Source: Polytrichum commune (lineage: Eukaryota; Streptophyta; Polytrichopsida; Polytrichales; Polytrichaceae). Taken from it: a DNA stretch of 64,000 nt. The stretch spans positions 49,476,001-49,540,000 of the forward strand of contig OX485804.1 in assembly GCA_950295325.1 (NCBI GenBank), written 5' to 3'. Each line of letters begins with the position of its first letter. Position 1 is the first letter of the stretch. Under the pieces are notes generated by a model, which was not told the DNA's origin, did not search any database, and was given only the letters and a program-made list of their open reading frames with translations. Below, piece by piece: positions 6,009-36,161 of this stretch. Both the position numbers and the translations under genes were made by a program.

Positions 6009-6293
6009 TACCTTTCGGTGACGGAAGGCTTATATGGCATCACACTATTGGACCGTCCCATGTTTATTTATGGTTTGGATGAATGTTGACCGGTAGATAG
6101 GTGAATGCATGGGCATCAATAACTAACATCAATATTGATACCAAGAACTTGCATCTGGGTATCAAAATTGCAATACTAATAAAAAAAATATTGATATTGG
6201 ATGAATATGTCAAAATGAAAGAATCTTTGTATACAAGTGTTGTTATTTGAATCAATGCCATTCCAAATCATATTGATACTAGGATGATTTCAC

Positions 6294-6637
6294 CTCGGGG
6301 GGGGGGGGGGGGGCAGTGTGTTAAAAAGTTAAGGATATAGGTGCGAACAACCACTATTTTATAGGGGGGTATTACTTTCAAATTTTTTTTTTTCACATGC
6401 TATCATTATGTTAATTTCTACTTTGGGTTAATAGAAAAATGGCTTGCATTACTTATATTTCCAAATTACCTATTATTCCATACCCTATAGTACTTTAAAG
6501 ATGTCCAGTGCCATTTTTAATACCCTATATTACTCTTAAGTCCATTTATAATTTTTTGCCCCCATGTTTTTAAAATACCCTATCATTTGTTCGCACGTAT
6601 ATTGCTACTCCAACCAATGACTACCCCCCCCCCCGAG
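6294..6637. mobile_element. hAT-like MITE with a 17-G run in its terminus
   Basis: A 344-bp non-coding element beginning CTCGGG with 17 G (6297-6313) and ending with 11 C then GAG. It is flanked by a perfect 8-bp duplication, gatttcac, at 6286-6293 and 6638-6645. Subterminal sequences GTGCGAACAA and TTGTTCGCAC are also inverted and are shared with family A. The 8-bp duplication points to a hAT-type transposase. Confidence 0.85.
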
Positions 6638-6668
6638 GATTTCACCTAGGTGTGTGTAGGGTTCTTAC

Positions 6669-6727
<59 letters not shown>
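6669..6727. repeat. (TA)n microsatellite
   Basis: About 59 bases of near-perfect TA dinucleotide repeat directly downstream of the MITE at 6294-6637. Confidence 0.95.
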
Positions 6728-6729
<2 letters not shown>

Positions 6730-7189
6730 TCAAAAGGTATTGAAAACACAAATACTACCAAATACCCAAACCCTAATTGTATCAAAAATACGAAGTCCTC
6801 ATTATAGATCTTCGAATGGTATCAAAAGAGGACTATATGAGTCCAACACTGGCTCTCTTTGGATCATGGCATTATCTGGCTATGTTAAAGTCACAACTTT
6901 CCCATAGCCAGATATTTGTTACAAGTAACGTGTTGAGTCGGGTATTTATGTTGCAATACATGCACACACGATTGAATTTTGACATGCTTTTGGAGAGCAA
7001 ACTGGAGAATCACTAGGAGCAATACTAGAGGCTAAGAGGTATGCCCTAACGTACCAACTTCTTTTACTATATATATATATATAATGGTTTTTGTTTTTTT
7101 GGGTGGATCGTATAGCATGGCATTACTCAGCATGCCATGCATTTTTTCTTTCGAAATTGGAGACTACCCACATGTGATGATGGTTAATA

Positions 7190-7620
7190 GAGTAGCTTAT
7201 GAAGTAAAGGAGTCAAAACTTTGGGTTTAGTCCCAAACTCTTAGTTTATGAGACTTAACACAAAGTCACCCAAGTTTTCTAATGTCTAGATTACCGTACA
7301 CAAAGAGTGGTGTCATGCTATTAAAAATAAGTTTTCTAGTTAATCCTAATAGGATGGGTGGGCCAAGCTAACCTTGCATAGGTTGATCCGTGATTTAGGA
7401 CAATGGGTCCCATGTGTGTACTTTATTTTTAGAACATAAACTTTAAAATCCTAAGATCTCAAAATTTGAGAGGTGGAAAGAGGAGGTCCCAAAAGTTTTG
7501 CCCAACTTTCAAAATAGGCTTTAATACACAAGGAGTTGACGAGCTCGAGATATAAAGTTATCCCAAAGAAGAATCAAACCGACAGTGTTTTGTCCTTCTT
7601 TGAGGGATTCTATGGATAAC
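7190..7620. repeat. Dispersed repeat shared with 22460-22920
   Basis: This stretch and 22460-22920 align over about 430 bp (shared words TACACAAAGAGTGGTGTC, CCTTGCATAGGT, AGAGGTGGAAAGAGGAGG) at a divergence suggesting an old pair. No ORF and no terminal structure was found. Confidence 0.65.
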
Positions 7621-7897
7621 TCTAATGTGGTTGGTCAAATTATAAATGTTGAGATAAAGAAGGATCGTGTTAGATCTCATGAAAACTTCGCCTCCATACT
7701 TCATATTCAACCTTAGAGTGTTGAAATTCCCTAATAATCCTCGAACGAAAGTGATGTAGTTCGCTCTGATTCTTTGGCCCACAATGACAAGTTCTCAATG
7801 TTGAGTGATGGTGTGTATAGAAACTTCACTTGCAAGAAATAAACTACAACCACCAAGTTAGACGTCTGTTATTTGGATACTTTTTTTCTTCTCTCTG

Positions 7898-8206
7898 CAC
7901 CCACTTCTCGTAGGATATGAAACACTTAATTAGTGCAAGCTGATTAGCATATCCAAATCGTGCTCATACCCGTTTGCCTCATAATATTTGGAGTTCAAAT
8001 GAACATATGATTCGTTATCCAAGTAAAGATTACTGTGGTCATATAGCTCCCTCCCCTCCCAATCATGTTGACTATATTGAACCTAGAATGGTTAGCATGT
8101 TTTGAGCAAACAATCCAATCTCTTTTGTACACATGTTTTTTTTGTGATGTCCATTATGAGATCCACACCTAAGGGCATGCCACTCACCTTGCATTTGTAT
8201 TTTTAC
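7898..8206. repeat. Dispersed repeat I, truncated copy
   Basis: Aligns with 9949-10320 and 14701-15079 through words such as ATTAGTGCAAG.TGATTAG and AGAATGGTTA. The left inverted terminus seen in the other copies is missing. Confidence 0.6.
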
Positions 8207-8400
8207 ATCTGCAATGCAGATTCGGATCCAAGGAAGTTGCCCACTCACTAGCGTGTAATTCAAACACAAATGAAAAATGATGCCAGAAGCCTCGAACTCT
8301 CTGCATATGTGAGAGATATGCAAGAAGGGATGGATATATATATATAAGACAATATTGTTTTTTTAATCTTTGACCTACTACTTTAATTCTCTAGTGTCAG

Positions 8401-9867
8401 CTAGTTATAGATGAACCGGATGTGTTTGAGAAATAACCGTTTGAGGTTTTGGGACTTCAAGAAAAATACTAGCTACAGATGAACCGGATGTGTTTGAGAA
8501 ATAACCGGTTGAGGTTTAAGACTTCAGGGGAAAAAAACTAATCACAGATGAACCGGACAAGTTCGAGAAATAACCGGTTGAAGTTCACGACTTCAGAAAA
8601 TTACCAATCATTCTAGAAGAAATTCAAAAGTTAGTGGAAAAAAACAATACACGATAAGTGGCAGCTTTGCATGGGTACGCATTCGCATACCGGACAAAGG
8701 CCACTTTTCATTCCCGGATGTAGATGCAGATCCAAGAACGACTAGGCTTGCTCGAACCGCATTACCAGTCAAAAATATGGGTGTCAAGGTTATTGCTATG
8801 TTAGCTTTTGGCACGTCTAGCTGAGTAGAAATTCGCGAATTCTTGCCATAGAAATATCATTGGAAGAAAGCTGGATTCACCCCCTGACAGAGAGTGTCGG
8901 GAGATGACAAGTGGCACATCTCACAACCTCAGAAACCCACCTCACTTTTGCTGCCGAATCCAATGTCCGGATCAATAACTTAACTTACTTGATGTTCAAC
9001 GCTCGCCTGCAAAGTGGTGTCAAGAAGACCACGTGGCTGCAGTCTGTGTGAGGATGTGAGCTCGGCTTGCCATTGGGACGTGCATTTTATCCACGTACCA
9101 ATCTCATGTACTGTACTTCTTATTTATGAGGTGATTCAACGACAAAGGTTTGTGAGAGTACCGTGCCATGAAGGTTTGTACTAAACAAACAGGAGCTGGT
9201 TTCGTGATATTATACACACAACTTCCTGGAAGATGATCGGTGACTGAAAACGGTGGCAGTGTCCGGGGAGTGTTTTGGGCATCATCGATCGAAATCCGGG
9301 CGTGTTTCCAAGTCCAGGCAGTTGCGTGTTGTGATCTTTTGGATTTCGTTGATGAGTTTGAGGTATATAAGGTAGAAATACCATAACCCGTGAAAATAAG
9401 GTGTTTCGCATTGAAGATCTGGTCTGACAATCAGGAGATAATTTTCCAAGATAGATGAGAAGGATTCGTGAAGAATGCAAGTTGTTTCATACTTTTCTGC
9501 CCTATACACAAAATGCTACAATTTTTCAAAGTGGAAAGTTTGTCCTTCCCCCTACTCGTTCACTAGATTCTCCCTACACCAAACACGGTAATCCGCATTT
9601 CCATACAGAACATCGCCTAAATCGGTTACCTCATGAGCACAGTAATACTTGACTCCCATTGGCTACACTAAGTGTACACGCATTGAAGTTGCCGCCGAGC
9701 CATGATTGGTTTTAGAAATGGCACTTCACCATTATGATGGCGGTCTAGTGCACAGCTAGAGGGTGGTTAATGGGTTATGGTATTTCTACCTTATTCCGGA
9801 GCCTCTTCTAAAACGATCGGTAATTTTCCTAAAGCCTTGAGCTTCAACCGGTTATTTCTGTAACTAG
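8401..9867. mobile_element. TIR element H with triplicated terminal unit
   Basis: The left end carries three direct units (8401, 8469, 8538; 68-69 bp each) with the core GAGAAATAACCGGTTGA. The right end (about 9800-9867) carries one unit in inverse complement, ending CTGTAACTAG. The body is about 1.0 kb once the MITE at 9370-9791 is removed. Parts of the body recur at 58975-59140, and a single left unit at 63285-63400. No transposase ORF is present, so it would be non-autonomous. Superfamily is unknown. Confidence 0.6.
9370..9791. mobile_element. Stowaway-like MITE, family E, copy 1 (inside element H)
   Basis: A 422-bp element with TIRs AGGTAGAAATACCATAACCC / GGGTTATGGTATTTCTACCT, flanked by TA on both sides, as for Tc1/mariner-type insertion. 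The corresponding sequence at 59031-59050 (GAGGTATATTCC) lacks it, which acts as a related empty site. Copy 2 is at 16126-16548 and a truncated inverted copy at 52507-52745. Confidence 0.85.
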
Positions 9868-17910: not shown

Positions 17911-18134
17911 TTTACACTAAATACATTATTTTATGTCACTTACGATTTGGAATTATGAAATTCTATGTCTATTTATTGTATATCTCATGTTTTACCAACT
18001 AATGTTAAATTGGTTGTTTGGACATTATGGAACATTAAAAAATTTACTTGGTAAAAAATTACATCAATAGAAAAAATATATAGCATTTTGTAACTCCAAA
18101 CAATAAGTGATACTAAATATCATCTTTAGTGTAG
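17911..18134. mobile_element. MITE of the 'CTACACTAAATA' group, short type, copy 2
   Basis: 224 bp, the same length as 5785-6008 and colinear with it (GTCACTTAC, ACCAACTAATG, AAGTGATACTAAATATCAT, ending TAGTGTAG). The left terminus is slightly decayed (TTACACTAAATACA). Confidence 0.75.
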
Positions 18135-18842
18135 TTCATGATAGAGTAAGGACAAGTTTACATTAGCGTTAGGGGTCCAAGAAACTTGGGGTTTTAAATA
18201 AGCCTTACTTTCCACTCAATTTGCATCCAAGCTTGACAATCGATTTCTCAAAATGGGAGGAGTATTTCATTGAGTTAGAACCATCACGATTTGACAAGAA
18301 ACAGAGGTCACAATAATGCCACTTCATTTTTTCATACCCAAGATCCGGAGCTTACTGAAATTACCCCAAATTTTGTTGGGCCCAACACATTGTGGGAGCA
18401 CACGAACACCAAAAGTTTCTGGATAGGCATTTTTCAATGCCTAATCCGGTCTGTCCGGATGATCCGAGTATCATCCAAGGATTCTGTAAAGTGCAGGATG
18501 TCAGGGACGCACTTTTCCTGCTTGAAAGTCGACCACCGGCCGGATATCCGGATCCGGATAGTCCTTTGGAAGTCTTTATTCCGGGACTTGCCTTCCGGAT
18601 TGAACCTCTCTAATTAAGTCTTACTCCTACATGCATCTTTCCTCAATACCTACCTACCTACTTCCTACCTCCATTGGTGATTGGGTTCATCCGGCGAAGA
18701 CGTCCCTACATAGGTAGAATCCGGATTTCTCTCACAACCAGTCCGGATCGGCCTAATCTTTCCTGGCAGGTCACACAGAGAATCCGGATGGTTCCCGGAA
18801 CTACAACGACAGAAAGGTTAAGTTTGGATCCGAGACCTGTTA

Positions 18843-19313
18843 ATCCGGGATAACTGGGCGATCCGTACCACTTTCCGGATTACCCCGCCCAAAGACTGTG
18901 AGACCTCTTCAGAAGATCGGATGGCGTAAGTCCGGCACCTCCCGGATCTTACCCAGTCCTAACGACGGCTATCTCACATGGACGTTACCCAGGCATCCGG
19001 AATAATGAGGTTTCCCTCCCACCACACGCCGGAAATGCTCTACGGACCGGAAACCTAACCGTTCCGGTTTCTCTCCTCCTTCCGACAGATCAATCCGGCT
19101 ACGGCGAACTTAGGCTCAACTAAATCGGAGATAACTGGGCAATCCGTACCGCTTTCCGGATTGCCCCGCCTAGGATCCGTGAGACCTCTTCAGAAGGTCG
19201 GATGGCGTAAGTCTGGCACCTCCGGATCTTACCCAGTCCTAACGACGGTTATCTCATATAGGCGTTACTCAGACATCCGGAATAGCGAGGTTTCCCTCCC
19301 ACTACACTCGGAA
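18843..19313. repeat. Direct duplication of about 185 bp inside the 3.75-kb element
   Basis: About 18850-19030 and 19130-19313 are colinear copies about 282 bp apart (shared words ATAACTGGGC.ATCCGTACC, GAGACCTCTTCAGAAG, GGATGGCGTAAGTC, CTTACCCAGTCCTAACGACG). They lie near the 3' end of the element in its minus-strand orientation. Confidence 0.8.
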
Positions 19314-19909
19314 AGGAGCCATAGTACTTATAGTCGGATCCGATCCGGGTTTCCTCCCCTTTGTCCTATCCGTATTTCCTACTCATCCATTCCCTCTAGA
19401 TCTGCAACGTGCTCCTAACCGTCCGTGCACAAAACAAGTCAGAATAGGTGGAGAACTAGAGCTTTATTGAGTGGGAAAAGACGAAATACAACATCGGAGA
19501 GAAGAACCCTCCTCAAGCTCCTTATTCAGCCTTAAGTAGAGGCTTGCAATCCCTAACTACTGGTGGCGGCCCAGGCGGCCGCCCAGAAAACCCTAGGCAG
19601 CGAGAAATCCGGAAACGTGTCCTTCGCGGAATTTCCGGATCTCGATCCGCTTTTTGCGCTGACAGAAAATTTGAATTCACAGTCTTACCAAAACTCAAAA
19701 AACATCCTAAACTATGTCTGCCTAATTTTGATCTACCTAATGTTAATCTACCTAAGTCTAATCTAAGTGGTGCGATGCTTTTTCGAAGCCGTCCCGTCCT
19801 TGGAATGGCTTGCGGGCCCGCTGATGGCGGAGGAGCCTCCTCCGGGGGTCAAAAGTCGCCGCTCCTACAGTCTTGTAAGTTGAGGGTGGGGGTGCCCACT
19901 GCTCCAGTA

Positions 19910-21639
19910 TCATACAATCCGGAGCAGGAGCTGGGCCTGCGACATAGGCGCCTTACCCCGATCCGGAGTCTTCGTCCGATCCGGTGTCCTCATCCTTTCC
20001 GGAGTTCTGGCCCTCTCCGGTGTTCTGGACCGATCTGATGTCCTGCCCCGATCCGGATTCGGTGATTGTCCACGTCCGGACCTGGCTGACCATTCCGTAC
20101 TCTTCCTCCGCACCTGGGACGAGCGGGTCCGTTCTGGGACAGGAGTCTTCTCTCTATCCGGAGCTCTTCCGGATTCCGGCGGATGGGAAGTTCCGGCTGG
20201 TTGACTGGGCCCTGCACCTGTCTGTGAGGCCGGAACCAGTTCCACCTCCCCAATAACTTCGTATAAAGTACCCGTCGGAGATCCGGGTGGACCTGAATAG
20301 AGCATCCGTCTGGGGGTACCACCCGGCAGGAGCTTCTGAATCTCCTTGAGTAAATCCTTCATGGTGCGAGAGTACTTTACCAGGATAGGGAGCGTTTGCC
20401 GGGCGGAAGACGGATCCGCCGACTCCATCAGCTGGTCGTAAAGATGCGCCTTGTTGACGATCTCTCCCGGATGGCCCACCAACTCCCAGACCCGGCTCAA
20501 CACCACGTCTTGTTCCGCCTGGAACTTCCGGATCTCCTCGCTCTTCTGGGCGAGCTCCCGGGTCATAGCGGCCACTTGTGCTGCTAGTTGTGCCTTCTCC
20601 GTCTCTAGGGCCTCCACCTGTTTCCGGTCCGTCCGCTTGGCCAACTCCCGGAGGATATTTCCGGGTCCACAATTGCCCAGGGCCCGGTTCACTCCCCGGG
20701 TGATGTGCTCCATCTGGAAGTACTGGTTCTGGAGCTCCGTCAACTCATCCAGGACGTGCTTGAAGGGGGCTTCCGGAAACTCGAAGGTGGAGAGATCAAT
20801 GTCCTTCCAAGGAACTTCCCGGCTGGGTCCAGCTTCCTGTCGGGGTGGCGGCGAGGCTGGTTTCCGGACCTTCGGAAGGGACGAAGCGGGAGGTGGTTCC
20901 GGAACTGCGGTGTCGCTGGAATCCTCTGTTCCGGTCTCCGGAACTTCGACTTCCGGACTGATCTTGTACACCACTTCATCTTCCGCTATAGTCAGCATGT
21001 CCTCTTCCGCTTCGTTGATGCAGCCGTGGTGTTGGTAGAGATGGAGGATGTAGGGGGAGAGAAAGGAGGGCTTCTGGCCAATGTGAGGGAGGGATTTCTC
21101 CACGTGTTCCTGAATTAACCTCGCCCAATTGACAGACCGGACTCCGGACATGGCCCCGAACAGGGTGTTGGCCATGGTAAGGCTGAGCCGCTTGGGCTTT
21201 TCCGGGCTAAGGATGGGGAGAATGAATTCTATGACTCTCCTCTCTCTAAGGTTCCGGCAATTCCCGGGACGGAATCCGTCCTTCAGATCCGGATCCGTTC
21301 GGAATTTTCCCACATAGAAACTATCCCTGCGGCTAGCCCAGCCCTCGCCCTTTCCTCTCGGAAATCCGTAAACCCCAACCCATTCCTTCGACGTCCATTT
21401 CTCCGGATCCTGCCTAATATTCCAGAACCACTGATTGCCTCTCTCTCGAATAGAAATTCCCGCAATGTGGCTTCCGCCCGGAGATTCCAGGGCTTGGCGA
21501 GTAATCCCCCGCACCTCATCCGGCTAAGGTCCTCTATGAGCTCCTTCAGCCCGGATTCTCTCTTCGGGATGGCCGGCGATACATGTTTCACGGGAATTGG
21601 GACCTGCTCCCTCTCATCTTCCTCTCGTGCTTCTGGCAT
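19910..21639 (-). CDS. Gag-like coiled-coil protein of the 3.75-kb element, one frameshift
   Basis: Two overlapping minus-strand frames together make a protein of about 575 residues. The ATG at 21639 opens a 42-residue N-terminus (ESGLKELIEDLSRMR). Around 21515, next to a run of five C on the plus strand, the reading must shift to the frame that runs 534 codons to 19910. That frame lacks an early ATG of its own. Visible parts are a globular N-terminal half with WTSKEWVGVYGFPRG and SPYILHLYQHHG, a Pro/Ser linker, a heptad-rich coiled coil (about residues 315-370 of the long frame), and a basic C-terminal tail of TPER/TPDR repeats. There is no zinc knuckle, protease, RT or integrase. I infer a structural or nucleic-acid-binding gag-like role in a non-autonomous element. 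A plant 'mobile domain' protein is the alternative. Confidence 0.55.
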
Positions 21640-22208
21640 TTTGCTTCACACCCTCAAACCTTCAACAATCCCCGGATTCTTTCCTCCGGAATTCCACCCG
21701 CTAATCACTTCGGAATCCCAGCAAACCAACTGCTGGTGACTCGGAAAAACAACTCACCCCTTGTTCTCTCAACAATGCCGCTCGCGCAAATGGCTCGGAG
21801 AAGAGGAAAAATTCTTGTAAGTACTCTCTCTCTCCTCCTCACGGGTCTGGTTCCGTAACCGTTTCCTCCGCAACCGTTCGGAATCTGTTGTAACCGCCTC
21901 CCGGTCAGGATGCTCCGGACCGGACCGTTCCTAAACGGTCTTCCCTGGTCAATATCCGGTCCGACCAAAGTGTCCGTTTTAACCATTTTAACGCGTAAGG
22001 CGGATGCCTAGAACCTTATTTCTTAAAACAACTAACCTACCCTAGGAAACCCTACTTTAACAACAACCTCAGGGTATTATCCGGGTATTAATCCGGTTAG
22101 GAAGCCAATTCGGACTTCCGTGGATTTTTGGGCTCCCACACACATTCACACCGACTAATACGATTACTTGATTAAAATGAAGTTTCTTCCAATCTTGGAC
22201 CCAAGTGT

Positions 22209-26078: not shown

Positions 26079-28564
26079 CATACCAACCTTCACTGGCCAC
26101 ACCTTAGGGAGATTTGGCCAATCAAACACCCATTTCTTCTTGCTCCCCTTCATACATCGATTAATGTCATCTGCACAAAACCAAAAATTTGTTGGAACAT
26201 GGTTGTTGGAACGGTATTCTTTTTTCATGCCTGTGTACATTGGCGCAGGTGTGCCATGTGTACTTTTCCCAACTTTAGCCCTACATGGATGTCCAATATT
26301 GGCCTGCAATGCCTGACACTCTTTCTTGGATGGATAAGGCAAACGTGAAATATACCATTGGGATTCAGGACACTTTGACTCCAACACATTAGTGGTGTGA
26401 GACACCACATTCTCATCACGCTTGAAGGATTCATCTATGCGTGCCCTCGTTGACCTTGTATTAGGGTGAGGGATGGAGTAGTTCACTTTGTTGGGACGAT
26501 GAGAATCATACTCAAATCCAGGTGGTAAGTCTAGTTTTCTCTTGGTTGATCCAAACAACTCAGAGCCTTCAAGTGCACAATTCCTTGTATTAAGATCCTC
26601 TGCCCCAGGGTATGACCTCATTGCCTCTGCAAGAAGCTTGGGATCACCAGTGTGTTCTGCAGCTTTGAGCTTCAATGATGCTTGATCTGGCCCTTTCCCT
26701 GAAGAGCCCCCTTTAAGCCAAGAACGATAATTTGCGATCTGCATGAATGCGCGGATCATGTCATCCACGGTTGCCTCGTACAAGCATGTCATTTTGTTCC
26801 CTGATTGTTGTAGCCACTTGTTATGCACTGTTTCTGCTAGGTTGCAAGTTGGCATCTCAGCACGCTGATCCAAAGTCAGATCCTGTAGTGCATATTGGGG
26901 ATATTTTTAGTTTTAAAAATTGAGATGACACAAGAATTTTATCAATAATAGAGGAGGGGCACTTGTATATAGAAGAAACTTACAATGAGCATGTGACCTT
27001 CCCATTGTCTATATCGATAATGCCAAAACCCCAACCATTGCGACAAGCTATACATGCCCTCCTCGGTGGTTGCCCCTGATGACAACCACCATGCATGTAT
27101 TACATGGTATTTGATGTCGGTGTCCTCCAAACTGTTGGCATCCTTGTAGTCTTTACAAAGTTGTTTGTGTTCATGTTGCAATGACGGTCGGATGTGTTTT
27201 TGTGTTATTTTATCCAAATTGGCATACCAATGAAAAAAACATGTACGTTCGCGATCCTCGAGGGGAACAGATGGGTCACCATCCCCGTAAATCTTCCTCA
27301 TAACAATCCAATTTGCTTGGGCACTATCCGCCATGAATCCTTTGAAATTGACATTGAGAACACCATTCTCCAACATTATAGCATTTAAATTTTCCCAAAA
27401 AATGGTTTGGGCCTGAGCATCCTCCAATTGCATATCACAACATGCTATTGTGAGAACCTTGCAATGTTTGCTATCATAGACATGACACGCCATTGTAGTC
27501 ATGTCTTGTAATCGCTTCACATGATCAAACATGATCCACGAATTTTCCATGTCTCCTCCATACTGCATGTGCTTTACCAAATCGACTCCGCTTCCAGCAA
27601 GATCAACAGAGATCTTGAACACAAAGACCTTATCTTTGGATTGCCCTGGAAATCGACTATCATGCACATATTTGAACCCAGAGTGGTTTTTTAGCGCCAT
27701 GATGCTATCCAGGGAACCCATTCCACTACGAATGAAACGTTTGGAACCCGCTACAAAGTTCCTACAGTTAGGGGAAGCCAAAGTGGAGAATTTATCCATT
27801 ACCACCTCCAAGGATGCTCCATGAAGATGGTTTTTTTCTCCTAGGAGTGGGGATTTGAGGATGTAATCAGCCAAAAACTGTTTACTGGCAGCCATAACAA
27901 TAGCCGAGTTCTTTGCAGTTGGAGTTTTAGCCACCTCATTTGCCACACACTGGTAAGCCATGTCTAGTGACTCACGACACACTCCACTAGACACAGGGTG
28001 GTTGTGAACACCCAAATGAATACAAACACGGGACATGTTTGACGATTGTGAATGCACGTATATAATTTTTGCATAGCAAACATCAAGACATATGGGAGCA
28101 GCATGACAAACCTTGCATTGAACCTTAGATTTCTCTGGTGGGTCTGTACCAACCATGAAAGGAGTGGGTGTAATACCGATCCATTCAATAGAGTTGCAAA
28201 CTCCACCATTTCGTGAAAAATACTCACATGAGTTGTTAGGACATTGGAGATGACCAACGCATGAAGACCTCCGAAAAGTCAAACCAAAGTCATTTTGAAT
28301 GTTTGTTGTTTTGGTTCTGCACCAGACATGTCCGTCGTAAATCTTGTCCATGCCATCCATCACCTTGCCATAAGCATCTGGAATTCCAGTCTTTACCGGT
28401 GGCAAAATGAAAAGGACATCCTCATTGAAAGAATATAGCATATACTTCACATCCTCTATAGCAATGTTATCGAAGTCAATATTTTTGAGATCGGATTTGG
28501 ATCTTCTACGACATTTGGTGATTTTGAGGGCTTCTAATACATGGACATCATATATGGATAACAT
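26067..28564 (-). CDS. MULE (Mutator-like) transposase, two exons
   Basis: Exon 1 is 28564-26984 and exon 2 is 26882-26067, joined across a 101-nt GTAAG..CTACAG intron (26883-26983) in phase 0, giving about 798 residues. The N-terminal part has Cys residues at 102/108/113 and an HNHP at 187-190, as in FLYWCH/WRKY-like zinc modules of MULE proteins. The catalytic core shows D364 in CHVYDSKHC, TIACCDMQLED after it, D413 in GFMADSAQANW and the C-x2-H of CFFHW (442-445). A Glu for the DDE triad is expected downstream and E501/E502 are candidates. It would cut and insert transposon DNA in the nucleus. The last residues (GMSPK) come from an abutting LTR terminus, so the original C-terminus is lost. 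A possible upstream exon exists near 28650-28690 but its frame does not join. No MULE TIRs were found. Confidence 0.8.
26883..26983 (-). other. Intron of the MULE transposase
   Basis: Donor GTAAGT just after ..GCTCATT and acceptor CACTACAG before GATCTGACT. Removing it joins two long frames in phase 0 and restores a continuous LTLDQRAEMPTCNLAE segment. Reading through instead adds 13 unrelated residues and a stop. Confidence 0.85.
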
Positions 28565-29603
28565 AGGATGAACATGAGGTTTTTTGGAAGGTATCTAGTG
28601 ATAAAAATTACTCAAATTCAGTGGTTTGTAAGGGGAGGGGTCATTACCAAGCGAAGCTTGTACAGAAGATGTAGAAGGAAAAGAACAATACATCTTCATA
28701 AACTTTGTATATTGATACTACAATTTAGATAGTGGTAATCGTTTTATTATTAGAATTCACATGGAGTATTTTAAAAAAATGCTCAAAAATATTGCAATGA
28801 CAGCTTGAGTAGGATGTGAAATAATGCAAGGGTGTTATGCACCTTTAATAGGAACCCCACCACATACAATGCATCTACACACAAATTTTAAATTTGTGAC
28901 GGCCAATAATAGGCTTTGACGTATGGAAATGTGAAACCCTAAGGGCCGCTTCATACTATGGCCGTCCAAGTCGAAAGGAGACAGATCATAATAGTAGTCA
29001 GAGAATATTTGCAAGCAAGGCATAGAATCCTAAACCAAATCCTTAAAAATATCTCCTTTAGAAACTAAGCCATAGGAAATTCTACGTAAATGGTTCTTAC
29101 TTGGAGGTTGAATCTCAAACTAAGCAAATCTTCTAAAACAACCACACAACCATCACCCTCGAGGCAAATTGAAGGGTACAAAGGATCCATGAGCACGGAT
29201 GGTAGCCATGAAGAATATGTGGATGCAATGTACATCATACTATGGAAAACATGACCTACTTGTATTGTGTGTTGAAAATCTTAATATGTGGAATTGAAAA
29301 ATATATTAGATGAAAGTCTATTGAAATAGATGATGCACATCGGCTGGTAGGTGTAAAAAAAGTAATGCCAGTTGTTGCTTATATTGGATAGACAATGATC
29401 AATGTAAAGATGATATTTTAATAGTGTATCTCTAGCTTCCAAATAAAATTCAATATCTGAATGTTTGGGATTCAAGATGATGGTGGTGGGCCATTGATAA
29501 ACCCTAAATTCCAAAGAAGAACAAGACATAATGAGTTATGATCTTTTTCAAACTTCTTATAACTTCAAAGTGAAGCAGAGTTTTTAGGTTATGCAAAAAG
29601 CGC
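28565..29603. other. Intergenic, between divergently transcribed loci
   Basis: The MULE gene (minus) and the ParB/methyltransferase locus (plus) are divergently oriented. Around 28940 the word TAAGGGCCGCTTCATACTAT matches one terminus of the PIF/Harbinger-like MITEs at 51945 and 61796, so a degraded copy probably lies here. Confidence 0.45.
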
Positions 29604-30075
29604 ATGCAGAGAACTGAAAGATTTTCAAAGTTGCAAATGCAAGAACGGGATTATGCGACACCAACAAAGTGGAAGAGAAAGAGGGGTGGTTTTAAGTACT
29701 CCACCAAAAAAACATTGGCGAGATCAAGAATGGGCAAAAGATTGAGTAGGGTCGATGAGGGAGAGGCATTTTTGACATTGAGAACTGTATTGTTTAAGCC
29801 CGGAGACGAAGATACTTACACTGATGGGCTTGGCTCAACACCTTACATTGGAGGCGAAACCAATACGGACACCCAAGAATATTCTTCCGAAGCCGAGGAT
29901 GAAGGGGAAGACTTGAATGAAGATGAAAAAGGAGGAGATAGTATAGAAGATGAAGTAAGAGGACGCTTGATAGAAGGAGGAGGGAGCATGGAAATCGATG
30001 GAGGGGGCAACTCCACCGCGGTTCAAAAACTTCACGTAAGAAGATTGAACTTGAATACTAAAAATGTTTCTTAGA

Positions 30076-30757
30076 GGTTGAGGGCATGAATTTTATCACC
30101 TCCCCCGAATCCTTGCTTTTATAAGGTGCTAAAAATGAGACATTAATACCCACAAAAACAATAAACGAAGAAACAAGAAAAATCCTCAAAACTTCAACAA
30201 AGGAGGTTTCGGTTCCGAGACTAGGTTTTTTGGAATTTTAGGGTTTTTTTCTTGCCTCTTCATGTCTTATTTTTGTCTTTCTTCTTGCACTTGTTTATGT
30301 TCATAACTTGTATCTTGCCTTGACATGTATGCTTGGAAGTTGTTGTATGGTTTGCTTGATGGGTTTGTAGTGCATCAAAGAGTTTCAATGAAGAAGCTTC
30401 AAGGTTTCTAAAAGGTTGAGGGCACGGATTTCATCACCTCCCCGGAACCCTTGCTCTCATAAGGTGCTGAAAATGAAACATTAATACCTACAAAAACAAG
30501 AAATGAAGAAGCAAGAAAAAACATCAGAATTTCAACAAAGTGAGTTCCAGTTCCGAGACTAGGTTTTTTGGAATTTTAGGGTTTTCTTCTTGCCTCTTCA
30601 TGTCTTGTTTTTGTCCTTCTTCTTGTACTTGTTTATGTTCATTACTTGTATCTTGTCTTGATATGTATGCTTGGAAGTTGTTGTGTGGTTTGTTTGATGG
30701 GTTTGTAGTGCTTCAAATAATTTCAATGAAGAAGCTTCAAGGTTGAAATTGAAGCTT
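30076..30757. repeat. Two tandem 338-bp units inside intron 1
   Basis: Units start at 30076 and 30414 (GGTTGAGGGCA...). They are nearly identical (ATCACCTCCCC, GGTTTTTTGGAATTTTAGGG, TGCTTGGAAGTTGTTGT). A third start is visible near 30770. They lie wholly within the intron 30036-30899. Confidence 0.85.
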
Positions 30758-30899
30758 CAAGGATTTCTAAAATGTTGAGGGTTTGGCTTTTTGTTTTGAA
30801 TGGTTGTTTGTTGATGAATAATGTTCAATTAGTTCGATTGAATGTTGTTTTTTTAATAGTTGTTTGTTTATTTTATTTTATTTAAAATTTGTATTTCAG

Positions 30900-31471
30900 G
30901 ATGGTAGAGATAACGATGGCGGTCCTCCACTGCCCAATGATTTGTTGAATGTGGAGGAGACTATGTCTCATATGCAAGATTTACAAAATACCAACTTCAA
31001 TTATTTGATTGGAGGACTTCGTATGAAGCCGTTTTCAACGTCAATATTTTTAATTCCTCTTTGTCGGTTAATACCGTTGCCTGTTGTGAGGCCAATCTAG
31101 GAAATCGATGTACAACTTTTGGAGAATGAATTTATGAATGTTTATAGTGAGGGTGATAGGGTATTATATGTATCTCCATATGACAAAGATGGAAATACTA
31201 TGGATATTCGGGATGCAGACACTTGGGGAGAACATTTGCAATCTTCCAATAAATCATTTGAGGAAATCTTCAAGAATTACAAAAATTATGAAAGATTTTG
31301 TGGTAAAATGTTCTTTGTTTGGGAGGGTAACCATCGGGTGACAGCTTGACGCCGCCATATCGATAGGCTGCATGGAGAAAATAGAGATTGGCATTACTCT
31401 GTTGATTGTATAGTACTTGAATCAACTGGTTCGGTGGCCCTTCTTCTAAATGCTATACATGATGTGAACAA
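30900..31471 (+). pseudogene. ParB-like exon with GNHR motif
   Basis: Read in one frame, the exon gives PLPVVRPI, stop, EIDVQLLENEF, then FFVWEGNHRVTA, stop, RRHIDRLH and SVDCIVLES. The order RPI..(V)..LL..F..G, a long gap, then V(x)EGNHR..A and a following beta-strand is the ParB/Srx fold signature, in which the G-x-H-R motif binds nucleotide. Both stops are one transition from a sense codon (CAG to TAG and TGG to TGA), as expected from deamination of methylated cytosine. The exon then splices (AA|GTATAT to TTAG|G) in frame with STESDHVKKN. With residues missing only at the two stops, the fold was probably functional in the ancestor. Confidence 0.55.
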
Positions 31472-33500
31472 GTATATTTCATGGTCCATGTTTTTTTTAA
31501 ATTTTTTTGTTTATGATTTTTAAATTATAAAAATCTTTGATATTTTTGGTGTCATATCTCTTAGGTCTACGGAATCAGATCATGTCAAGAAAAATTTGGT
31601 TCACAAGCTCCATCGTGTCAAAAGTTTTGGAATCAGGAAGTTGGAGGAATTTAAAGATCTTTTTACCCCTGATCAATACACCAAGTGTTTGAAAAAAGGT
31701 GGAAATGAAACTTTGTATACTCTCACTTTAGAAGTCTTTACTCAGTTTCTATACAATGTGAGTATTCTAATTCATGTTGAGCCTTGTTATTGAAGATATT
31801 TTTACTAATGAATCTTTAACTAATTCTTATTTTTTGTTTATGTAGCATGAGATAGCCTCTATGACCGAAGAGGCATCTCGTAAATACAATGAGAAAACTC
31901 CACTTCAATCAAGGACAACAAAAGGTATTTGGGATGTCATGCAGAATGCAACAACAAACAATATCATCAATTCGTAGAAAAGAATTTGAAAAACTTCTCG
32001 CTGTTGCAAATCCAGCCAATGGGTTCGATTTCTTAAATGAGATAAGTCATTATGTTTTTCTATGTAACATTCATTTCGGCATTCTATATGAGAGTTTTTC
32101 ACTATTTTCACCTTCTACTTCGCAGATCAATAAACATTTTGGATATCACTCCAAGCCTACCATGACCCTAGAGAAATTGCAAATGATTGCAACTGCTCTA
32201 GTGGAATCAATCTTCAAAATCAAATGGTTGAGGTGGTGGAATTCTAGCGATATATCCTGTGAATCTCTGCGCTTCCCATTGGGAGATATCAAGGAAAAAG
32301 AACTTGGAAAATGGTTGATCAAAGCGTCATTCTGGGCCCAGGTTTTTCTTCATCCTTAAATGTCTACGTGTTTTCATTTCAAATTTTTAATGTTTTATGA
32401 TTTGTTCAATGGTTGTGATGCATATGTGTCATTTTGCAGTTGGAAGATGGTTTTGTGAAACAATTTGAGGATATGGAAAAAAAATGAATGTCAATATTCT
32501 TTGGAGCGCACATATACTTAAGCCTACTGAGTACATTGAAAAATGGCGCATTATGCTTTGGACAAAAGCATTCCGGCATTTTTTGGTGGCATGAGTGCAT
32601 TTACAAAATCTAGTCTACTCGGTAAAGTTTTTTGTGAAGGCATTGCTATCAAACAAGTGGTATTTAGGTATTCTATCTTTTTTTGTCTTATGGCTTTTAT
32701 TATTTCATTGCATGCTTGAAATTTGTCTTGAAGGAATTAATTCACTAACGTCAATAAACTTGTTATTTTGTGTCAAAGGTACATAAAGAACAAGTTATTG
32801 GCTTCAAATGCCATCTCCCTGGGCTCCATTCCAAGTTGATTCTCTTCATGGGGTGACAAATCTAGTGACCTTTGCATTTTTACGGCAACCCAGATAAGAA
32901 TATAAAATTATACCACTTTGCAGTCTTATCCATGGTTTATTGAGTGTCCTCTTACATTTTGTTCAAGTGAGGAGGAGGAGCTCAGGAAACACTCATGTCC
33001 AATAGACTTGCCTCCTGATGATATTGACATGATAAACAATGAGGATGTGTGTGTGGTGAAAATAGTCAAACCAAAGGGAAAAACTAAACGTAAGCGTGGC
33101 TTAAAGGTGGATGAGGGTAATCCAACACCTTCATCTCAAATTGGTATTATGGTACGCAATCCTAGTCCTTCAACATCTACACCTAGCACTCAAGGCAATG
33201 ATGGACCTAAGTTTTCTCCTATTTCGAGATCACAACGATCTCAACATGTGTCAAAAATCATTGTTAATGGTGCTTCACCTTCTGGGCCTATTTCTTCAGT
33301 GATGTTGGAGAAGATTTCAATACAAACATTGATGGAGAATGGTGGTCATGAGAATCCGTTAATGTTGAAAACATTCGAATTTGTGACTAATGTTAATATA
33401 CTGAATATTGAACTTATTTTTATTTTATAAAATATGGTGTTGATTTTGCAACATGATTTGGACTTGAGTGTAATTATTGTGTTTTTGGTTCTTTTGATAG

Positions 33501-34541
33501 GTGGGTTCCGGATGCAAGAGGAGGGTTTCTTCAAAGGATTGTAATTTTGGAGGTTTTGATCTTATTATTGCAGATTTGCCAGAAGATTTACCTGTACCTA
33601 ACGTTTCATCTCCTCCACATGTAATCCCAGCTTGGAACGACCACAAGAGAAAGAACATTGAGGCTCTATTTGAATTTGCATGTGCATATCTCACCGATGA
33701 TGGCCCCTTGCTTTTGTTTGTCCCTGAGAAGAAAGATGTCAGAGACAATGTAAGGACATTCGCAACCTCCTATGATTTTGTATTGCGAAAAGATTGGTGG
33801 GGCTTCAACGAGTTGCCTTTGTGTTATCCACTTGACACGTCATTGACGGTATACATTAAACTCTATTATTTATTACTTCGATTTCTACCTTTTCATTGTA
33901 TTGCAATGTTCTCCTCAATTTTGCAATCGATTCCCCCGCTAAAGATTTTCTTGTGGTTTATAGACTTGTCGTTTCCGCATCATATTGTTTCTTCGTTCTA
34001 CTCCCAAGTCGGAGTTTGTTTTTCAAAAAAGAAACGGAAATACCGAGGTGGATGTGGAGGCCTTGGATGTGTTCTTCAATCTCACATCGGCGAGCACTCA
34101 ACTCATGAATGGAAAAGTGCCATGGAGAAGTGGTAGGGAGGACTTGGAATCTATGCAAATCTTAATAGAGACTTTAACAACCCCCGCATCGGTTGTCCTC
34201 GATGCTTACGCATCTACAGGTCGGTTTATCTCTTAGTCAAGGACCTATTATATCATATCTCAATGTGTTTTAATGAAGTCATTATAGTGTTGTCAGTGGT
34301 TTTTGCAAATTAACTGACATTGCAACAATTCATTGGCAGGTGCATCTATTCATGCTTGCAGAAATAATGGCCGCCATCTAGTTGCATACGAGGAAGATTC
34401 TGCATTGTTTGATGCTATTTTATACCCATTAAGTGATCCACTACCAACTACTAGTGTAGGTGGATTTATGCCACATAATGCCTCCATTGATTCCGATGAA
34501 GAGCCTGTTAAGAAGGTTGCGAGAAAAAATTGATTAAGAAC
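33501..34541 (+). pseudogene. Methyltransferase-like exons (motif IV then motif I)
   Basis: Three exons (33501-33848, 33964-34219, 34340-34541) join in frame without a stop. The first has GGFDLIIADLPEDLP, resembling the (D/N/S)PP(Y/F) motif IV in a strand-loop, then a helix and LTDDGPLLLFVPEKKD, the next core strand. After about 150 residues comes ASVVLDAYASTG|ASIHACRNNGRH followed by LVAYEEDSALFDAI, which has the shape of motif I (FxGxG) with the acidic residue that holds SAM. This order matches circularly permuted N4-cytosine/N6-adenine DNA methylases. The catalytic DPPY is altered to DLPE, so activity is doubtful even if expressed. Two introns interrupt the module, one inside motif I. Confidence 0.5.
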
Positions 34542-34811
34542 GTAAGTTTTAATTTCTCCATATTGTTTGCTAGCTTGGCCTCCAATGTCTGGTATGTGTG
34601 CACTAGAAGTCTAACACTTATGATTTTATTTCGCAGAAAAAAGAACAACATGACTTCATCTCCGAATATGGGTTTGCCAATATATGCTGAAAATGTTGCT
34701 CAAATCATGGCAAGATCAGTGACGCCAACACCTCCCCGTATGTCTGCACGAATTGCCCATAACCCGTACGTAGATGATGAGGCGATTCAATGCGATGATC
34801 TAAATGATTAA

Positions 34812-35289: not shown

Positions 35290-36161
35290 TTCCAAAAATC
35301 TTTCCTCACTCACCGTTCACAAGTTACTACTCATCGCTCACCGCTCATTGCTCACCGCTCACATGATAGCACTCCCCTTACTCAGCCATCAATCCGAACC
35401 GCAGGGACCGGGCAACCAGAATTTGAAGTCACTGCACCCCTTGGCTTAATCGAGCTGCCTGTAGAATTTCTTACCAAAAAAAACAATCAATGCAATGTGG
35501 CTCGTTGAATGCGGTGCCACCCGCATTGCACTTCAGAAATTGATTAGCCCAATGTCGTGGCTGCTTTGAGCGTGATTCGGCACCCTGCCTCTCTCCTGGT
35601 CCTGGATCCTTCATTTTCTACTCCAATTCCTCGCCCTCCTCTTGCTGAATTGCTCTTCGTACCAGCTGCGCAAGCAACACCTCATTCGCATCCAACCATG
35701 TCCCACGAGCGTGATCAGCTTCAGTCCATTTCTTCCTCAAAGATCTCTCTGGCCGCATTCCCTCGACTACCCCTTGCTTCCCCTGGCCGTAGCCGCCCCC
35801 AGACGCATTGAGAGAGAGCCAACCAAAAACAGACCAAGGCTTCTCCTCGGTCCCGGCCCGAAAATTGTTAGGGGTGAGGTGCACCCCCCCTTAATCAAAC
35901 AGTTGTTAAGCCTAACTCAACTGGGTTGAACCCCGCCCCTATTAACTAACTTCCTACCTACCACTACGGCTTGGCATTTCCTTACTATTGCCTTACTAAG
36001 GTCGACCAATAACCCCCACCATTATACTTAATGGTCTAAAAACCACACACACATGCTTCTACTCTTTTTATGTTTTTAATATGATCAACGCAAAGTCAAA
36101 ACTCAAGTCTTAATGAACTTTTAGGTTAAATAACCTGAGTGAACCTGTATTTGGGCTCACA
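35290..36161 (-). mobile_element. Truncated LTR, TGTGAGCCC family
   Basis: The right edge TTTGGGCTCACA ends at 36161, and the adjacent CTACTCTTTTTATGTTTTTAATATG matches the same region before 45286. The interior is GC-rich like the other LTRs. A CTCACCGCTCA tandem lies at 35320-35362. The expected left terminus is absent. Confidence 0.5.

Follow-up and report, generated by a model that had tools for sequence, protein, structure and literature searches.

A ParB-like and methyltransferase-like accessory gene in a probable Mutator-like transposon family of Polytrichum commune

Introduction

What is a gene that joins a ParB-like module to a DNA methyltransferase-like module doing in the genome of a land plant? 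The question is raised by positions 29604-34811 of a 64,000-nucleotide stretch of Polytrichum commune DNA (assembly GCA_950295325.1, contig OX485804.1, positions 49,476,001 to 49,540,000 of the forward strand), which we call the window. An initial annotation, made from the sequence alone, had read there a relic of an intron-bearing eukaryotic gene, either domesticated or carried by a transposon. Here we report that a defunct DNA transposon with two genes, one of a kind 11-15 kb long, lies in the window, and that the ParB-methyltransferase gene is its second, accessory gene. We are confident of the identity of gene and element described below; the role of the accessory protein is discussed as a more speculative matter.

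Results

The accessory gene and its intact relative

The window copy, on the plus strand, is decayed. Its exon 2 (30900-31471) reads VVRPI(stop)EIDVQLLENEF and WEGNHRVTA and has two in-frame stops, TAG at 31098-31100 and TGA at 31347-31349, and the middle exons lie in differing frames with stops inside. Exon 8 (33501-33848) encodes LIIADLPEDLPVP, and an intron (34219/34340) splits VLDAYASTG, with ASIHACRNNGRHLVAYEED coming after. All of the protein strings named in the initial annotation are present at the positions it gave, and their recurrence is far beyond chance: a query of 82 residues from exon 2 gave 968 candidates at first look in the genome of 408 Mb, and the best 150, which were scored, had E-values of 4e-53 to 6e-14.

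An intact relative, L016, has 11 exons, ten introns of 78-105 bp that all have GT-AG borders, and a single frame of 1063 amino acids (the first exon is taken from the first in-frame ATG; an earlier exon is possible). It joins the ParB-like and the methyltransferase-like modules in one spliced eukaryotic gene, as had been proposed, and together with the copy L029 it bears out the frame-keeping intron borders; the existence of this intact-frame relative, with the stops and frame changes of the window copy, agrees with calling the latter a relic. L029 is without the motif I intron and reads DWHCGVGGSITAC continuously, which supports the splice junction in motif I of the window copy independently of L016. 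In L029:236-1150 exactly this intron is missing and the preceding one is kept, so that copies of the transposon gene differ by precisely one intron.

The element

Comparison of copies within the window subfamily shows similarity that continues leftwards beyond the accessory gene, takes in a gene on the minus strand and breaks off abruptly at either end. Three complete elements of this subfamily, 12,221, 11,168 and 12,594 bp long, have clean ends (left GAGGGAAGC..., right ...CACTCCCC), and their target-site duplications are GTAGGTTGG, CCTGGGCGA and CTTCTGAAA(G). The termini are imperfect inverted repeats made of GAGCGGTGAGC-like units. An element of the L016 type, 15,051 bp long (C2:22685093-22700143), has GTCCACTTG(AG) on either side and inverted ends that share GCATGAGCGTAGAGCG. 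All four elements having both ends located thus combine target-site duplications of 9-11 bp with terminal inverted repeats. The left end of the window copy, sought through inverted repeats, was not found, nor were the ends of the element containing copy L086.

By eye, the minus-strand gene has a terminal SWIM-like CxC...CxH stretch and a D...C-x2-H region, with FMADSAQANW...ERTCxFHW. Because of these motifs and the length of the duplications we read it as a Mutator-like transposase; the SWIM profile matches weakly (E 0.9). It is most likely the transposase of the element, and the assignment of the element to the Mutator-like superfamily is likely, not proven. The window counterpart of this gene has 70-71% DNA identity to that of the three complete elements, and the collinearity reaches as far as the accessory gene.

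Two other delimitations were considered. L016 and L017 were taken as transposase-free elements of 6.3 kb, and this was rejected, as the full element of one sister copy extends further left and includes the transposase; among nine sister copies the L017 junction recurs in one and is not seen in the other eight, and the right end is the same in all. A repeat of about 975 bp beside several copies was considered as a terminus and set aside as a solo long terminal repeat-like insertion. Its occurrences in or beside the elements (L012:1082-2056, L014:1422-2416, L015:40-1016 and L023) are 92-96% alike.

Copy number and pairing with the transposase gene

The ParB-like gene occupies at least 226 places in the genome. 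The ParB-like exon of another type, used as query, gave 1,245 candidates, and 127 of the best 150 that were scored are without an internal stop; the methyltransferase exon gave 1,012 candidates, of which again the best 150 were scored. For pairing, the nearest of the at least 226 listed ParB-like places was taken within a limit of 20 kb and compared with 200 random-placement trials. Among the 150 listed matches of an L016-type transposase query, 94 have a ParB-like place head-to-head within this distance, one has another arrangement and 55 have no listed partner, as against a mean of 0.7 pairs and a maximum of 5 in any random trial. With the window-type transposase as query, a listed ParB-like or methyltransferase place lies no more than 20 kb from 16 of the 135 matches, and 15 of these 16 are head-to-head (random placement: 3.4 pairs of any kind).

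Most of the 119 window-type matches lacking a listed partner have 78-88% identity to the query. L086, the one element of this band that was read (86% transposase identity), carries the accessory gene too, in a divergent copy with WDGNHR and a methyltransferase tail; its accessory gene has 28% identity over 523 columns, a stretch that includes an intron. L019, representing a further type, has an N-terminal piece of the transposase kept at the same place.

The ParB-like part

The AlphaFold2 model of the ParB-like exon, based on 29 copies, has a predicted local distance difference test score (pLDDT) of 77 and a predicted template modelling score of 0.75. When it was compared with the PDB by Foldseek, 25 of the first 26 matches were sulfiredoxin, ParB, Noc, PadC or SbnI, with Arabidopsis sulfiredoxin at the top. 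The ParB assignment rests on this predicted fold. PF02195 had no match in any of the 29 members that were scanned; the best other Pfam family was DUF6551 (E 0.0095, two members), and the ParB-like alignment found no ParB among PDB and Pfam sequences. Single window exons gave no ParB or methyltransferase match in Pfam, these queries being too short to indicate absence. GNHR, the counterpart of the GxxR phosphate motif (Box II), is conserved in 34 of 41 loci, a set in which some places occur twice. The sulfiredoxin catalytic cysteine is absent from this motif. Searches for relatives of the exon gave three phage records, each with E 9, and, at the sensitivity used, nothing convincing in phages, in prokaryote genomes or among viral contigs. 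The exon 2 domain is thus predicted, from the model, to have a ParB/sulfiredoxin fold in which the phosphate motif is kept as GxHR. Comparison of the middle region with the PDB gave nothing useful, and no helix-turn-helix (HTH) was recognised there.

The methyltransferase-like part

By sequence, this part matched a PHROG methyltransferase (E 1e-5), phage methylases (at best 2e-4) and PDB entry 5hfj, M1.HpyAVI (E 0.003). The initial annotation had named PF02195 and PF01555 as the profiles on which its reading could be checked: PF01555 does match, at E 2e-4 and with 21.7 bits, under the cut-off of 26.7, and PF02195 does not. All of the first 38 matches in a structural search were DNA amino-methyltransferases, the model used being of low confidence. 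Motif IV precedes motif I in the gene order, as had been noted before, which is the permuted order of the N6A/N4C type, and the model points to a permuted N6A/N4C methyltransferase fold of the beta class.

The initial annotation had not weighed the state of the catalytic motif. The pattern [DNS]PP[YFW] is present in none of 29 copies; motif IV reads DVPE, DIPE, DLPE and similar, and no copy has an aromatic residue at the fourth position. The S-adenosylmethionine (SAM) motif I region is DWQCG(T/V)G, with ALESD in the acidic strand after it, in most copies, DAYASTG in the window type and DWSPST in L018. Judging by these sequences, the catalytic motif seems to be lost or degenerate.

Selection and module exchange

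The ratio of nonsynonymous to synonymous substitution rates (dN/dS) was estimated by the Nei-Gojobori method, pairs with dS of 0.15-1.5 being regarded as usable. The median was 0.13 (0.08-0.26) for the ParB-like exon, where 36 of 406 pairs were usable, and 0.11 (0.06-0.23) for exon 8, where 36 of 190 were. Among the ParB-like pairs that were dropped, 348 had a dS of at least 1.5 and 22 a dS of at most 0.15; the latter show ratios of 0.18-1.06, as expected of recent decaying copies. Both exons are under purifying selection.

The two genes of an element do not always have the same relatives. Copies A9 and L086 share 88% of the transposase core and 44% of the ParB-like domain, whereas A9 and the window share 73% and 84%, respectively. 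Outgroup-rooted site counts were 4, 2 and 2 for the transposase and 9, 1 and 0 for the ParB-like domain. Against a complete element, DNA identity is 70% on the side of the transposase, mostly 88-90% on that of the accessory gene and 75-80% in the tandem repeats; because of these differences the window element looks like a mosaic. Exchange of the accessory module between transposase lineages is likely, not proven, on these comparisons.

Palindrome arrays

The non-coding parts of the elements hold tandem arrays that differ by type. Perfect palindromes of 20-28 bp, specific to the type, are found in the intergenic region and in introns of four types: GAGGCCTCGG-AT-CCGAGGCCTC, GACCCTCTCGG-AA-CCGAGAGGGTC, CAATCCCACGG-AT-CCGTGGGATTG and GTTTGGGTCG-NN-CGACCCAAAC. 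The core CNCGG-NN-CCGNG is common to three types. Palindromes with arms of at least 10 bp number 11 in L024, 6 in L023, 30 in L019, 3 in the L016 type and 12 in L086 and L088 together, the means after dinucleotide shuffling being 0-0.02; the type's own sequence makes up 9, 3, 30, 3 and 9 of them, respectively.

Genome-wide, the four sequences occur 1,903, 1,998, 84 and 9,231 times in the order given above, and the reversed control of each occurs 0 times (GACCCTCTCGG-AA-CCGAGAGGGTC and GTTTGGGTCG-NN-CGACCCAAAC were counted as 22-bp cores with two free central bases). Spans from transposase to accessory gene contain 49 of the 50 listed places of GAGGCCTCGG-AT-CCGAGGCCTC and 48 of the 50 listed for GACCCTCTCGG-AA-CCGAGAGGGTC. 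The 50 listed of the 84 places of CAATCCCACGG-AT-CCGTGGGATTG form seven clusters beside L016-type copies (judged by eye), one of them about 30 kb off. Several listed clusters of GTTTGGGTCG-NN-CGACCCAAAC are far from any listed transposase place, and part of this repeat may lie outside these elements. The palindromes of three of the four types sit mainly in these elements.

GTTTGGGTCG-NN-CGACCCAAAC often recurs in short regular periods, e.g. at L086:1877-1962 and 6362-6659; the cluster at C1:616088-626110 is one of those far from listed transposases.

Outside 24-36 kb the window has no long palindrome in 52,000 bases. Supposed flanks of other copies have ten in 44,476 bases, seven of which lie in L017 sequence that is inside the element, between transposase and ParB-like gene. 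The window subfamily has imperfect 16-mers such as GTCTCGGTTCCAAGAC, at 1-6 per copy in five of five copies and none in 64,763 control bases.

One element type (L013:8823-10000, L014:2431-4092, L015:804-1800 and 6210-8984) has up to 37 copies of a 75-bp repeat, which flanks the gene on both sides in opposite orientation and is without long palindromes.

Features of the window

The features of the element are collected in Table 1. To the left of the decayed part of the element, at 18001-22000, the window has a G+C content of 0.48-0.57, compared with about 0.35-0.40 just around. Elsewhere in this genome four matches to the LEAFY family (PF01698) were seen (L080, L081 and two further places), more than would be expected for most plants; 14 control genomes had none. 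This family is specific to plants, in agreement with a plant host, and the residues are similar to those of LEAFY from plants without seeds.

Table 1. Features of the transposon copy in the window (positions within the 64,000-nucleotide stretch).
Feature	Position	Strand	Basis or remark
Decayed gene, interpreted as the element's transposase	26116..28594	-	Head-to-head with accessory gene; 550-aa open stretch 26942-28594
Probable first exon(s), N-terminal stretch basic then acidic	29604..30057	+	Open frame; similar DNA in window subfamily; boundaries approximate
Two tandem copies of about 338 bp, first long intron	30063..30700	+	Three complete relatives hold 3.3-6.3 copies of 360 bp
Imperfect palindrome GTTTCGGTTCCGAGAC, 6/7 arm pairs, candidate parS-like site	30206..30221	.	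1-6 such sites in each of five subfamily copies, none in 64,763 control bases
Exon 2, ParB/sulfiredoxin-like domain with EGNHR	30900..31471	+	Two stops; predicted fold of L016 homologue
Exon 3 (STESDHVKKNLVHKLHRV...)	31565..31757	+	L016 exon model
Exons 4-7, decayed (frame changes, stops)	31846..33430	+	L016 exon model; boundaries approximate
Exon 8, methyltransferase motif IV region, degenerate: ADLPED replaces xPPY	33501..33848	+	
Exon 9, ends with first half of motif I (VLDAYAST)	33964..34219	+	
Exon 10, second half of motif I and acidic SAM-site strand (GASIHACRNNGRHLVAYEED)	34340..34533	+	
Last exon	34637..34811	+	L016 exon model (exon 11)
Element right end, inverted terminal repeat ending CACTCCCC	35330..35377	+	Same end with different flanks in L009-L012
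TTACTCAGC, position of right target-site duplication	35378..35386	.	No left copy found for window element

Discussion

A possible mechanism

The accessory protein, of about 1060 amino acids, would consist of an acidic N-terminus, a ParB/sulfiredoxin fold, a middle region and a permuted methyltransferase fold. We propose that a dimer of the ParB-like part recognises the palindromes of its own element in the way ParB recognises parS, each element type having its own palindrome, and that this may be followed by nucleotide-dependent loading and by spreading from these sites. The methyltransferase-like part would be a platform binding DNA or SAM instead of an enzyme: the combination of a lost catalytic motif with purifying selection suggests that a one-time DNA-modifying enzyme now has the role of a reader or shield. 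Most likely, this would let the element recognise its own copies and protect them from silencing, as VANC does for VANDAL elements; anti-silencing is suggested by the parallels with VANC, namely an accessory gene of Mutator-like elements, tandem-repeat targets that are intronic or upstream, and rapid divergence from family to family.

Taken as a whole, from the identity of the element through palindrome binding to self-recognition and anti-silencing, this is the explanation towards which we lean. As to its parts, binding of the palindromes by the ParB-fold protein in parS fashion seems reasonably probable from the sequences, and self-recognition and anti-silencing as the function, which is argued by analogy, falls somewhat short of an even chance. 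A more specific version, a ParB/parS-like transposon system that loads at palindrome arrays, spreads and shields the element from silencing through its methylation-dead domain, with co-divergence of protein and palindrome and with module exchange, is put forward only tentatively.

Several observations weigh against the preferred explanation. As regards the folds, PF02195 is silent throughout, the best Foldseek match of the ParB-like model has an E-value of 0.069 (probability 0.98) and the E-values are weak in general, and the methyltransferase model has a mean pLDDT of 46 and includes an in-frame intron. As regards the superfamily, PF10551, the MULE (Mutator-like element) transposase domain, gave no match at E up to 1 in four transposase pieces, its 142 genome-wide places do not coincide with these elements (compared by eye), and hhalign of the transposase against Mutator-type sequences found the right register with P of only 0.04, a shallow comparison with three Mutator-type loci having given no useful signal. 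In the divergent copy L086 the ParB-like exon has a stop and only a 21-residue piece of exon 8 was found, and for module exchange the transposase site counts are few (4 against 2 and 2), although the distances are clear. The palindromes are not uniform either: sequences other than the type's own make up 2 of the 11 long palindromes in L024, 3 of 6 in L023 and 3 of 12 in L086 and L088; three remain in flanking DNA, two of them in the L087 flank; perfect palindromes with arms of at least 10 bp are absent from the window, A9, L015 and L018 stretches, as are palindromes with arms of 9 from L013. It is also conceivable that the palindromes belong with a different protein.

Alternative explanations

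If the protein were a working methyltransferase, writing N4-methylcytosine (4mC) or N6-methyladenine (6mA) on the element with DxPE as an unusual catalytic motif, the permuted fold, the retention of SAM motif I and of the acidic strand in most of the copies examined and the purifying selection on exon 8 would be accounted for, and self-binding and self-modification are indeed what the authors of the Ectocarpus work propose for their protein (PMC12477816). We consider this unlikely, given that the fourth residue of motif IV is aromatic in none of the 29 copies and that changing SPPY to APPA abolishes the activity of rotifer N4CMT (PMC8885841). A role without any epigenetic component, as a transposition co-factor for integration or for the transposase complex, is suggested by maize MuDR, where mudrB, likewise the second gene of a Mutator-like element, is apparently required for integration (PMC6446971). 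The palindromes seen, however, lie between the genes and in introns and not at the termini, and in the A9-L086 pair divergence or exchange has affected the accessory gene far more than the transposase, which is not what a closely matched partner would show, so that we give the co-factor a still smaller chance than the working enzyme.

The palindromes themselves might be binding sites of the transposase, products of replication slippage or hairpin-forming repeats, and have no connection with the accessory protein. Their tandem arrangement, the merely imperfect palindromes of the window subfamily, the lack of any in L013, L015 and L018, and the 9,231 occurrences of the commonest one, partly far from listed transposase places, would all fit. 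Set against this are the recurrence of perfect palindromes with type-specific sequences where shuffling predicts 0-0.02, and the core CNCGG-NN-CCGNG shared by three types, pointing to a family of related sites; we rate this alternative as improbable, on a par with the working methyltransferase. Lastly, a domesticated host gene, or a fragment of one captured by a transposon, might be suspected from the intron-rich structure and from the known capture of host genes by MULEs (PMC6446971). It is largely refuted and retains a very slight chance, since the gene is found in at least 226 places, stands head-to-head with the transposase in the element types read, and has the termini and target-site duplications outside both genes. 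Of the two origins offered in the initial annotation, cargo of a transposon has held and domestication has not.

Comparison with known systems

In the brown alga Ectocarpus, the element Sola1-1_Ec32 encodes a ParB-plus-methyltransferase protein of 1104 amino acids on the strand opposite to the transposase, and green and red algal cases are cited in the same paper (PMC12477816); with these, ParB-methyltransferase proteins are already known as a class of transposon accessory. The gene described here has in common with the algal ones the combination of a ParB-like and an N4C/N6A-type methyltransferase part, a length of about 1100 amino acids, the orientation opposite to the transposase and the setting in a large DNA transposon (PMC12477816). 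The differences are that the algal host element is a Sola1 and the present one is Mutator-like and resides in a land plant, that xPPY is lost in the 29 copies examined here, and that palindrome arrays are present, the last two features being without mention in the accessible part of the algal description (PMC12477816). In a literature search in which subscription papers were mostly out of reach, we found no land-plant report of the class, of the lost motif or of the palindrome arrays. The earlier statement that no such plant system had been described thus stands for plants in the literature searched, with the addition of the transposon cases reported from algae (PMC12477816).

Among Mutator-like elements, VANC of the Arabidopsis VANDAL elements is likewise an accessory gene. 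The motifs that it targets lie in tandem repeats, both in introns and upstream, and vary from family to family (PMC5735166, PMC10398659). The VANC21 motif, YAGTATTAY, is short and non-palindromic, whereas the sites here are palindromes of 20-28 bp, and the likeness is drawn from the setting, not from the sequence. A paper on Mutator elements names mudrB, mutB, vanB and vanC, and its main text contains neither the word methyltransferase nor ParB (PMC6446971).

Outside plants, the same pair of domains (PF02195 and PF01555) occurs in ParB-methylase fusions of bacteria and phages. PF01555 belongs to those fusion partners of the ParB fold that are enriched in phages, and sulfiredoxin is the commonest eukaryotic form of this fold (PMC12704722); a Bacillus ParB-methylase is reported to nick DNA (PMC5512222). 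Unlike those fusions, the gene here is intron-bearing and encodes about 1060 amino acids. N4CMT of bdelloid rotifers is also a permuted amino-methyltransferase of bacterial type in a eukaryote and is among our structural matches (8s9o, 8s9n, 8s9m). However, it is encoded by the host, has SPPY and places 4mC at transposons (PMC8885841), whereas the methyltransferase-like part here is encoded by the transposon and is without an SPPY-type motif.

The likeness to ParB/parS consists in a ParB-fold gene beside arrays of long palindromes, with GxHR in place of the GxxR phosphate motif (PMC12704722); the difference is that no HTH was recognised in the middle region on comparison with the PDB. The present family extends the algal ParB-methyltransferase accessory genes to an abundant, probably Mutator-like family in a land plant, and the palindrome arrays add a cis part, each of the four types offering a candidate protein-site pair together with natural mismatched controls. 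If our explanation is true, a fold used in bacterial DNA partition would have been turned into a self-recognition device of selfish DNA in plants, in parallel to VANC and built from other parts.

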